From Desulfurellaceae bacterium (GTDB lineage: Bacteria; Desulfobacterota; Binatia; Bin18): 53,873 nt of DNA. The stretch lies in NCBI GenBank assembly GCA_021296095.1, contig JAGWBB010000006.1, positions 2,730-56,602 on the forward strand, in the 5' to 3' direction. The position numbers and the translations under genes are program-made. The notes under the pieces are model-generated. The model had not been told where the DNA came from. It saw only the letters and a list, made by a program, of their open reading frames with translations, and did no database searches. Positions within the stretch are counted from its first letter, which is position 1, and the number at the start of each line of letters is the position of its first letter. Shown piece after piece: positions 50,519 to 53,873 of this stretch.

Positions 50519-51472
50519 ATGGGACAACAATACTCAATGGCAGACATCGAAGCCCTGGCCCAAAAGTACAAAAACTGGGGTAAATGGGGCTCTGAGGATC
50601 AGCTCGGCACCCTGAACTACATCACCCCCGAGAAAGTGGTCAGCGCCGCCCAACTGGTCACCCAGGGCAAAACCATTTCACTGGCCATCCCCTTTGACGA
50701 TAAAGGTCCCCAGACCGGCGCCTTTGGTCGCTTCAATCCCATTCACTTCATGCTCCAGGACGGGGGTGACATCGCGGTCGGCGCCCAGAAACATCTGCCC
50801 AATCTGCAATATACCGACGACGCGGTGACCATGCCGCTCCAGTGCGCCACCCAGTGGGACGCCCTGGCCCATATCCTGTACAAAGACAAGATGTACAACG
50901 GCTACGGGGCGGAGGTCGTGACCAGCAGCGGAGCCAAAAGAAACGGCATCGAAAACGCCAAAAGCAAGATTATCTCTCGCGGCGTGCTGCTTGATATCCC
51001 CCGCTATAAGGGCAAAAACTGGCTGGAGCCCGGAGAAGCGATTCAACCAGAAGACCTCGACGGCGCGGCCGCGCTGGGACGGGTGAGTGTCGGGACCGGC
51101 GACATCGTCATTATTCGCACCGGCCAGATTGCCCAGGTCCGGGCCGAAAACGACTGGGGCACCTACAGCGGCGGCGATGCGCCGGGACTGGGTGTGGCGT
51201 GCGCGACGTGGCTGTGTGACAAGCAGGTCGCCGGCTATGCCACCGACACCTGGGGCACCGAGGTCATTCCAAATGAAACGCCCGATATCTTCCAACCCCT
51301 GCACATGATTCTGATTGTGCACGCCGGCATGCTGGTGGGCGAGATTTTTGACCTCGAAGAATTAGCCGACGACTGCGCGGCCGACGGGATGTACGAGTTC
51401 ATGTTTGTCGCCCCGCCGCTGACGATTACCGGAGCGGTCGGCTCGCCGGTGAATCCCCAGGCCATCAAATAA
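50519..51472 (+). CDS. Cyclase-family protein (kynurenine formamidase-like fold)
   Basis: A 317-residue protein of the putative cyclase family (metal-dependent hydrolases related to kynurenine formamidase). NPIHFMLQDGGDIAVGAQKH, then CATQWDALAHILYKDKMYNG, where QWDALAH is the family's active-site segment, and VGTGDIVIIRTGQ. AAGGAG precedes the ATG. The gene is followed 18 bases later by a conserved protein and then the UGSC selenoprotein, apparently one operon. Substrate unknown. Confidence 0.88.
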   Translation: MGQQYSMADIEALAQKYKNWGKWGSEDQLGTLNYITPEKVVSAAQLVTQGKTISLAIPFDDKGPQTGAFGRFNPIHFMLQDGGDIAVGAQKHLPNLQYTDDAVTMPLQCATQWDALAHILYKDKMYNGYGAEVVTSSGAKRNGIENAKSKIISRGVLLDIPRYKGKNWLEPGEAIQPEDLDGAAALGRVSVGTGDIVIIRTGQIAQVRAENDWGTYSGGDAPGLGVACATWLCDKQVAGYATDTWGTEVIPNETPDIFQPLHMILIVHAGMLVGEIFDLEELADDCAADGMYEFMFVAPPLTITGAVGSPVNPQAIK

Positions 51473-51490: not shown

Positions 51491-52579
51491 ATGGCAGCCT
51501 CAGCACACCTGGCCTCGCAACGCATTGAGGTCCAAGAAGACGATCCAGTTGAACTGCTGTATGGGCGGGGGGTAACGGACGGCCTGCCGGTTGTCCCGCC
51601 CACCCAGGAGCGGGTGGCGCGCATGCTGGCCGCCACAGCGCGTGATCCGAAAGAGGAAATCGGCACCATCGGTCCCAATTACGGCCGGGCAAGTGTGGAG
51701 AAGATTGCGATCAATGCGGTCATGGCGGGCTGTCACCCGTCGTATTTTCCGACGGTTCTGGCTGCGGTCGAGGCCATATGTGAAGAGCAGTTCTGCATTC
51801 ACGGTATCAATGTCACGACCTTCTCGGCCTCGCCAATGACGATTATCAACGGCCCGGTTCGTCACCAGATCGGGGTGAACTGCGGGCATAACGCAATGGG
51901 CCACGGCTTCCGGGCCAACGCGACCATCGGCCGCGCCCTGCGGCTGATGATTATCAACATCGGCGGCGCCAAGCCCCACGAAATCACCAAGGCAACCATG
52001 GGCCACCCCGCCCAGTACACCTTCTGCGTGGGTGAAAACGAGGAAGAGAGCCCCTGGGAGCCGCTGCACGTTGAAAAAGGCTTTCGCCCCGAGCAGAGCA
52101 CCGTGACCCTGTTCGGCGGCCACTCCCCGTTGCAGATCAACGATCACGCCAGCCGCAGCGCCGAGCAGTTGGCGCTGTCCCTGGGCTGGACCATGGCCGG
52201 ACTGTGGAACCATAAAAACTACCCGCTCTTTTCGGATACCGTTCTGGTCGTTTGCCCCGAGCACGCCAAAACCTTCGCCCAGGACGGCTGGTCAAAACAC
52301 GATCTGCGCCAGTTTCTGTACGAGAACATCCGCCGTCCGCTGCGTGAACTCCGCCCCGGCGTGAATGGCGGCGAGGGAGCCGGTGTCAGCATGCTCAGGA
52401 CGCCCAAGAAAGACCGTCCGCCGCCGACTGACGACACGCTGTTTCCCAAGTTTCCCAAACCGGAGAACATTGTTATCATTGTGGCCGGTGGCACGGCCGG
52501 TCGCTTTTCCGCAGCCGTCCAGGGCTGGGCCGGGTTTGACGCCGGCAGCCGTATCACCACCAAAGAAATTCAAACCTGA
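51491..52579 (+). CDS. Conserved protein associated with the UGSC selenoprotein
   Basis: A 362-residue soluble protein. It starts VELLYGRGVTDGLPVVPPTQ, with AVMAGCHPSYFPTVLAAVEA, TTFSASPMTIINGPVRHQIG and NCGHNAMGHGFRANATIGRA, and ends NIVIIVAGGTAGRFSAAVQG. It has Cys residues in AGCHP, EQFCIHG and NCGHN. I recognise it as a conserved protein found beside UGSC-type selenoproteins, but I know no biochemical function. TAAGGAGG precedes the ATG. It ends 15 bases before the selenoprotein start. Confidence 0.75.
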   Translation: MAASAHLASQRIEVQEDDPVELLYGRGVTDGLPVVPPTQERVARMLAATARDPKEEIGTIGPNYGRASVEKIAINAVMAGCHPSYFPTVLAAVEAICEEQFCIHGINVTTFSASPMTIINGPVRHQIGVNCGHNAMGHGFRANATIGRALRLMIINIGGAKPHEITKATMGHPAQYTFCVGENEEESPWEPLHVEKGFRPEQSTVTLFGGHSPLQINDHASRSAEQLALSLGWTMAGLWNHKNYPLFSDTVLVVCPEHAKTFAQDGWSKHDLRQFLYENIRRPLRELRPGVNGGEGAGVSMLRTPKKDRPPPTDDTLFPKFPKPENIVIIVAGGTAGRFSAAVQGWAGFDAGSRITTKEIQT

Positions 52580-52594
52580 ACAAGGAGGTGTTCA

Positions 52595-53140
52595 ATGGGA
52601 GATATATTACTTGACCCGACGGATGTCGTCGAACGCGAGCGGAAAGCCTTCGCCCCGCGGCTGGAGAGTCTGGCCGGCAAGACGGTCGGGCTGCTCGATA
52701 TCAGCAAGGCTAAAGGCGCCTTCTTCCTCGACCGAGTGGAAGAAGTCCTGCGTGAGCAGTACGGGGTAAAGGACGTCCTGCGTCGTATGAAGCCGACGGT
52801 CGCCCGGACCGCGCCCGAGCCGCTGAAAGCCGAGCTCAGCCAGAAGTGTGACGCCATCATCGAAGCCCTCAGCGATTGAGGGGGCTGCATTTCGTGCAGT
52901 TCGCACGATGTCGTCTACTTTGAAGAGCAGGGAATCCCGACCGCCAATGTAACCACCACCGAATTCATCGGGGCGGCCCACGCCCAGTGCACCGCGCTCG
53001 GCATGCCGGACTACGAGCCGATTCTGGTCCAGCATCCGATCCAGCCCAAAACCCGGGACGAGGTCCGCAGCCTGGCCGACCAGGTCATCGACCAGATCAT
53101 CGCCAAGCTGCTGAGAGACAAGGTCCAACAGGCCGCCTAG
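52595..53140 (+). CDS. UGSC-family selenoprotein, TGA read as selenocysteine
   Basis: The frame from ATG 52595 (AGGAGG upstream) reads 94 residues to a TGA (52877-52879), then continues in the same frame for 86 residues to TAG at 53138-53140, 181 residues in all. The sequence around the TGA is IEALSD-U-GGCISCSSHDVVYF. UGGC replaces the family's UGSC and is followed by CISC, giving both UxxC and CxxC redox-type pairs. The C-terminus (EPILVQHPIQPKTRDEVRSL) is the conserved tail of UGSC proteins. SEC is residue 95. Function unknown; a redox role is inferred. No selA, selB, selC or selD is in the window. Confidence 0.88.
52892..52908 (+). promoter_or_regulatory. Candidate bacterial SECIS hairpin
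   Basis: TCGTGC (52892-52897) pairs with GCACGA (52903-52908) over six bases with the loop AGTTC. The loop starts 18 bases after the TGA and has G in its second position, which suits the known bacterial SECIS pattern (apical loop about 16-37 bases after UGA, G among the first two loop bases). Confidence 0.7.
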
Positions 53141-53356: not shown

Positions 53357-53873
53357 ATGAAGCTGAAAAAACTCTTGGGAACCGCCTGCGCCGCGCTGGC
53401 CGTTGGCGCGTTGGGCCTGGCGGCTCCTGTCAACGCCTATGATCAATGTACCCTGGTCGAATGTACCGGCCCTGAACACGAATATACCGGCGAGGTGTTC
53501 ACCAAAGACAATATGGCCGAAGCCGGCGAGCTGATCATCCCGGGGATCGCCTGGTACGTCAACGAGGGCATGGAGCTGAGGGTCATCAAGACGATCAAGA
53601 TCCCGCTGCCCAAGCTGTTCCAGGAAGCGACCGAGAAATACTCCGGCCAGGTCGAGATCTCGCCCGACGGGCGCGAGATGTTCAACTATGTGGCCGGGGT
53701 GCCCTTCCCCAATATCGACCTCAACGATCCGCTGGCCGGGGCCAAGGTCATGTGGAATCAGGAACAGAAGCCCCAGTATGTGGACAACGTCGGGACCGAG
53801 TGGATCACCGAGCTGGTCAACAGCAAGGGTGAACTGGAGCGGACCTACGGGTCGCAGTTCTGGCGGCGCATGA
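53357..53873 (+). CDS. DUF1329 family envelope protein, 3' truncated by window end
   Basis: The first 172 residues of a DUF1329 protein, an outer-membrane lipoprotein-sorting-like family. A signal peptide is evident (LGTACAALAVGALGLAAPVN, then AYDQC), followed by GELIIPGIAWYVNEGMELRV and YVAGVPFPNIDLNDPLAGAK, the family signature. GGGAGGG precedes the ATG. DUF1329 proteins in several lineages travel with RND/MMPL exporters, one of which opens this window, but no operon link is visible. Confidence 0.85.
   Translation, partial: MKLKKLLGTACAALAVGALGLAAPVNAYDQCTLVECTGPEHEYTGEVFTKDNMAEAGELIIPGIAWYVNEGMELRVIKTIKIPLPKLFQEATEKYSGQVEISPDGREMFNYVAGVPFPNIDLNDPLAGAKVMWNQEQKPQYVDNVGTEWITELVNSKGELERTYGSQFWRRM

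Follow-up and report, generated by a model that had tools for sequence, protein, structure and literature searches.

The stretch of DNA analysed here (the window, 53,873 nucleotides long) carries a gene at 52595-53140 whose product is, as far as sequence can show, a selenium-containing protein of the UGSC family. Just ahead of it lies a gene of no named family that is a near-constant companion of UGSC genes. Our best explanation, which we consider somewhat more probable than its competitors taken together, is that the two products form one enzyme, in which UGSC is the selenocysteine (Sec) subunit with a Sec domain distantly related to that of GrdB. The protein itself adds a member to a known family, and the pair that it forms with its unnamed partner is the part worth following. 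The UGSC family is still without an assigned function in recent reviews (PMC13188914), and the constant partner offers a first handle on this widespread selenoprotein. Together, the constant partner, the natural fusions of the two proteins and the link to the GrdB Sec domain yield a testable two-subunit enzyme. The relevant features of the window, all on the forward (+) strand, are as follows.

50519..51472, +: gene for a putative cyclase (PF04199) that precedes the pair
51491..52579, +: partner gene, 362 amino acids, separated from the start codon of UGSC by 15 bases
52582..52588, +: putative Shine-Dalgarno sequence (AAGGAGG, read from the sequence), 6 bases ahead of the ATG
52595..53140, +: gene for the UGSC-family selenoprotein (181 residues with Sec at position 95; stop codon TAG); matches PF24696 (162 bits) and NF041046 (148.8 bits)
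52877..52879, +: in-frame TGA for selenocysteine 95, the U in the motif U-G-G-C
52892..52908, +: stem-loop UCGUGC-AGUUC-GCACGA, the upper part of a SECIS-type element of the bacterial kind

The UGSC gene and its in-frame TGA codon

The reading frame starts at the ATG at 52595 and is stopped after 94 codons by the TGA at 52877-52879, beyond which the same frame continues for 86 further residues to the TAG at 53138-53140. These coordinates are exactly those of the original prediction, which had proposed a selenoprotein split by this TGA, with the local motif U-G-G-C followed by C-I-S-C, and had warned that conventional gene calling would report a truncated 94-residue protein. A standard annotator would indeed do so. 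The interpretation as a single selenoprotein is supported, and neither of the two findings that were to refute it was made: the Sec-decoding genes are present in the genome, and homologues join the downstream half to the upstream half.

UGSC-family profiles had been named as a check, and both were matched above their cut-offs by the read-through protein: PF24696 (UGSC; cut-off 25) with 162.2 bits across residues 5-172, and the equivalog NF041046 (UGSC family selenoprotein; cut-off 125) with 148.8 bits. Judged by these profiles, the protein clearly belongs to the already known UGSC selenoprotein family. This family was named UxxC in a 2008 description of marine metagenomes, which counted 255 Sec and 21 Cys members (PMC2398784). 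The copy in the window resembles the family (PF24696, NF041046; PMC2398784) in its full-length profile match and its UxxC motif, and here too the Sec form is dominant and the Cys form is rare. Of 147 members, 99-100% keep Sec or Cys at position 95 as well as G96 and C98, and position 97 varies. The motif in the window differs in reading UGGC, a Ser to Gly change that is common to other close Binatia copies. Also unlike the published descriptions of the family that were consulted, which mention neither, our UGSC genes have a constant partner and form seven paralogous pairs in one genome. The 2008 paper does mention a fusion to a domain called ‘Unknown_1’ (PMC2398784), which may be the same protein as the partner. 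None of the papers searched joins Binatota and selenoproteins.

A simpler reading would take the TGA as a true stop, with a truncated 94-residue protein followed by a pseudogene remnant or a sequencing error. Standard annotation would favor this reading, and the window probably derives from a metagenome assembly. However, each of the seven UGSC copies of the genome has exactly one in-frame TGA, at the same codon, and the same is true of nearly all copies that span the site among about 150 UGSC copies of relatives. A Candidatus Binatota MAG contig that is 99% identical has the same TGA. Cysteine homologues at position 95, another check that had been suggested, are present: two relatives (L062 and L063) carry a real Cys codon (TGC) aligned with the TGA. 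Conservation at the protein level extends into the downstream half, where C98, D105, G113, F124 and H147-P148 are kept at 94-100% in 147 sequences, and the hairpin that follows the TGA covaries (see below). We regard a true stop as extremely improbable.

The genome, a 4.3-Mb assembly that is 96.9% complete, encodes all four Sec-decoding components that had been listed as a check (selA, selB, selC and selD). Searches recovered tRNA-Sec (selC) at 72 bits, SelB at 383 bits, SelD at 385 bits and SelA at 517 bits, the last encoded by a gene that adjoins selC. The selD gene (L039; contig C46:5964-6899 of genome G000) adjoins selB and itself contains one in-frame TGA, and SelD of this genome is probably a selenoprotein. 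Two PrdB/GrdB-like genes, L203 (G000:C56) and L204 (G000:C17), also have an in-frame TGA, in the contexts VPV-U-PVC and TPV-U-PLC. Counting the seven UGSC genes, SelD and the two PrdB-like genes, the selenoprotein genes of the genome number at least ten, all of which ordinary gene calling would shorten. A partial match on contig C22 was considered as an eighth UGSC gene and was taken instead as the overlapping end of the copy on C177. The seventh copy (L035:1093-1812; G000:C160) has an apparent frameshift in its first third, due either to an assembly error or to decay.

Covariation in the SECIS-type hairpin

The original prediction had placed a hairpin downstream of the TGA and called for a test of its SECIS fold. 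The six pairs are formed by U52892-C52897 and G52903-A52908 and enclose the loop AGTTC (52898-52902); the helix starts 13 bases after the TGA and the loop begins at base 19. Because an Rfam search of the window finds no element, the hairpin was tested by covariation. The bases that follow the TGA at 146 UGSC places were reduced to 106 distinct 39-base stretches, which were aligned. The inner five pairs form in 96-99% of these sequences. Changes on both sides of a pair fill 41 cells, compared with 7.6 +/- 2.2 in shuffled alignments (0 of 500 shuffles reached 41), and no slid register of the helix comes near the covariation of the true one.

The loop-closing pair (pair 18-24) is C-G in 79 sequences, G-C in 25 and U-A in one. 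At the codon level, a Cys codon TGC is always accompanied by a G at the end of the codon two positions later, and a Trp codon TGG by a C (Fisher 6.8e-24). Since Val codons ending in G or C are used almost evenly in UGSC genes overall (GTG 954, GTC 914), this coupling points to selection at the RNA level inside the coding region. The local RNA also folds better than its dinucleotide shuffles (z -2.5). Judged by this covariation, which includes codon-silent changes, the hairpin is a real SECIS-type element, in keeping with what had been proposed. In the two Cys homologues the helix is imperfect, as expected, for a sample of only two sequences.

One divergent genome (G089), with 22 UGSC matches (L205-L223), lacks the hairpin in the standard register, and alternative hairpins exist there. 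Many of its matches lie in frames of 560-640 residues that are fused to the partner. Several copies lack the TGA and encode neither Sec nor Cys at this position, which suggests that they are diverged or inactive paralogues.

A near-obligate partner gene

All seven UGSC genes of the genome adjoin a copy of the partner gene, with the gene order reversed on contig C41. We surveyed 148 UGSC places in total, among which some loci were reached twice. At 130 of these the partner is no more than 1.5 kb away on the same strand; it comes before UGSC at 99, after it at 23 and is fused to it in frame at eight. At one further place it is 1.7 kb away, and at eight others, from Acidobacteriota and related records, it is divergently transcribed from about 0.5 kb away, which brings the paired places to 139 of 148. 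The available sequence has no partner at the remaining nine, which include four Poribacteria loci and some loci at contig ends. The upstream gene is a near-obligate partner of UGSC, and adjacency is not absolute.

The two genes also occur together at the level of genomes. Among 148 genomes sampled across the phylum, the same 18 have both partner and UGSC (Fisher 1.6e-23, a value that overstates independence because the genomes are related to one another). The protein distances of UGSC and partner correlate over 127 loci (Spearman 0.81; 0 of 500 permutations), as expected if the two genes move together. The original prediction was borne out as to the UGSC selenoprotein, and it had missed that this family had been described before, that the upstream gene is a constant partner and that the genome has seven such pairs.

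Many polar residues of the partner protein are invariant; the invariant residues include K71, C81, H104, R141, R148, E182 and E184. Sequence searches with it against Pfam, NCBIfam and PDB gave no match to a family or a solved structure, and a structure search with its model returned only weak and inconsistent matches (fumarase, cyanuric acid hydrolase, chorismate mutase), with Z at most 6.1.

No conserved third gene stands beside the pair, as the commonest family occurs in five of the 86 neighbours surveyed. The PF04199 cyclase gene upstream of the pair in the window is possibly co-transcribed with it. Only in close Binatia orthologues (L111, L115, L116, L118, L119 and L120) does it stay next to the pair, and the cyclase is not a constant part of the system. 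Downstream, a gene that matches DUF1329 (53357-53872) runs off the window and is not part of the pair.

A probable relation to GrdB and a possible two-component selenoenzyme

When the profile of 147 UGSC proteins was compared with that of six Binatia GrdB proteins, the two aligned Sec with Sec at a score of 54.8 (probability 93.6), and the helix and strand that follow Sec were matched as well. Column-shuffled GrdB controls scored at most 23.8 in 80 shuffles. The six GrdB proteins taken singly scored 35-45 each, versus at most 23.2 for 86 control proteins. With Sec masked, GrdB still ranks first, at HMMER E-values of only 1e-3 to 3e-2. From these comparisons it seems likely, though not proven, that the Sec domains of UGSC and GrdB are distantly homologous. 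The UGSC protein does not match the full-length GRDB profile PF07355.

The resemblance to GrdB (PF07355; glycine/sarcosine/betaine reductase) lies in this apparently homologous Sec domain, where Sec is followed by G-S/T and then by a GIPT-type strand. Relatives carry full-length GrdB genes (L191-L196) in which the TGA is read as U-G-T-S-T or, in one Binatia GrdB (L193), literally as U-G-S-C; a GrdE-like gene adjoins two of them. The differences are that UGSC lacks the approximately 330 residues that precede the Sec domain of GrdB, and that GrdB pairs with GrdE whereas UGSC pairs with an unrelated protein. The PrdB-like selenoproteins (short PF07355 relatives with U-P-V-C) are of roughly similar size and occur in the same genome (L203, L204), but a direct comparison of profiles shows no significant similarity between them and UGSC.

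The AlphaFold model of UGSC (pLDDT 92.6) alternates between strand and helix in five beta-alpha units; U95 follows the third strand and stands at the start of a helix. The structures that match it best belong to the widespread Rossmann- or flavodoxin-like kind and include no thioredoxin. A sequence search of solved structures with UGSC, partner and GrdB found nothing credible.

These data bear on what UGSC might do. One reading takes UGSC as a general thiol-disulphide oxidoreductase of the thioredoxin type, as suggested in 2008 (PMC2398784), and the partner as one of its client proteins. The similarity of UxxC to CxxC redox motifs fits such a role, yet the modelled topology and its Rossmann- or flavodoxin-like matches make a thioredoxin-like fold less likely; the supported sequence relative is the GrdB Sec domain, and a single constant partner speaks against a general reductase. 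We consider this role unlikely. Equally doubtful in our estimation is a substrate reductase built strictly like GrdB/GrdE, in which the partner would contribute a pyruvoyl group and Sec would form a carboxymethyl-selenoether in the manner of the reductases for glycine, sarcosine or betaine. The homology of the Sec domain to that of GrdB, the invariant polar residues of the partner and the true GrdB genes in the same class are all in line with such an enzyme. However, the partner shows no similarity to GrdB or GrdE-like profiles (GrdE probability 0.1, with two GrdE-like sequences compared), and no other glycine-reductase components were seen beside the pair.

A relationship to McrC/Mmp7, the iron-sulphur cluster holders of methyl-coenzyme M reductase activation, would make Sec, Cys and His ligands of a metal cluster. 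The top VIA-align match to the UGSC model is 8s7v chain H (Z 11.5, 135 residues, 17% identity), which we infer to be Mmp7 from its chain length and the paper. The rmsd of this match is 4.6 A, though, the next, unrelated matches reach Z 10.2, and the search of solved structures yielded no sequence match. This relationship is very unlikely in our judgement.

The preferred reading, a two-component oxidoreductase formed by UGSC and the product of 51491-52579, suggests the following course of events. SelB and tRNA-Sec would decode the TGA at 52877, helped by the stem-loop 13 bases downstream, to give an alternating alpha/beta Sec domain in which U95 stands at the N-terminal end of a helix and the near-invariant C98 lies one turn from it. 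With its many invariant polar residues, the partner would supply the substrate site and probably binds the substrate. The selenolate of U95 could then attack or reduce the substrate held by the partner, after which C98 would close a selenenyl-sulphide that a cellular thiol system would reopen. If GrdB is taken as the model, a reductive cleavage at an activated carbon may be the reaction, the alternative being a plain redox role. We infer complex formation, the reductive chemistry and the substrates alike; with several diverged pairs in a genome, the substrates may also be several.

A broader proposal, to which we give about an even chance, is that UGSC and its partner constitute a class of selenoenzymes not described before, with two components that are sometimes fused, which share the Sec domain of glycine reductase and have replaced its substrate-activating subunit. 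Such enzymes would have expanded into sets specific for different substrates, numbering between one and about 20 per genome, in many uncultured bacterial groups (Binatota, Rokubacteria, Entotheonella, Acidobacteriota, Actinobacteria and Chloroflexi).

Two further observations concern UGSC genes elsewhere. At one locus (L160:739-2921) a tandem of two partner genes lies ahead of one UGSC gene. UGSC genes that are 73-81% identical to the one in the window (L114 and L123) occur in a public record titled Klebsiella pneumoniae (isolate TH-08apr19-175), a title that is probably a mislabel.
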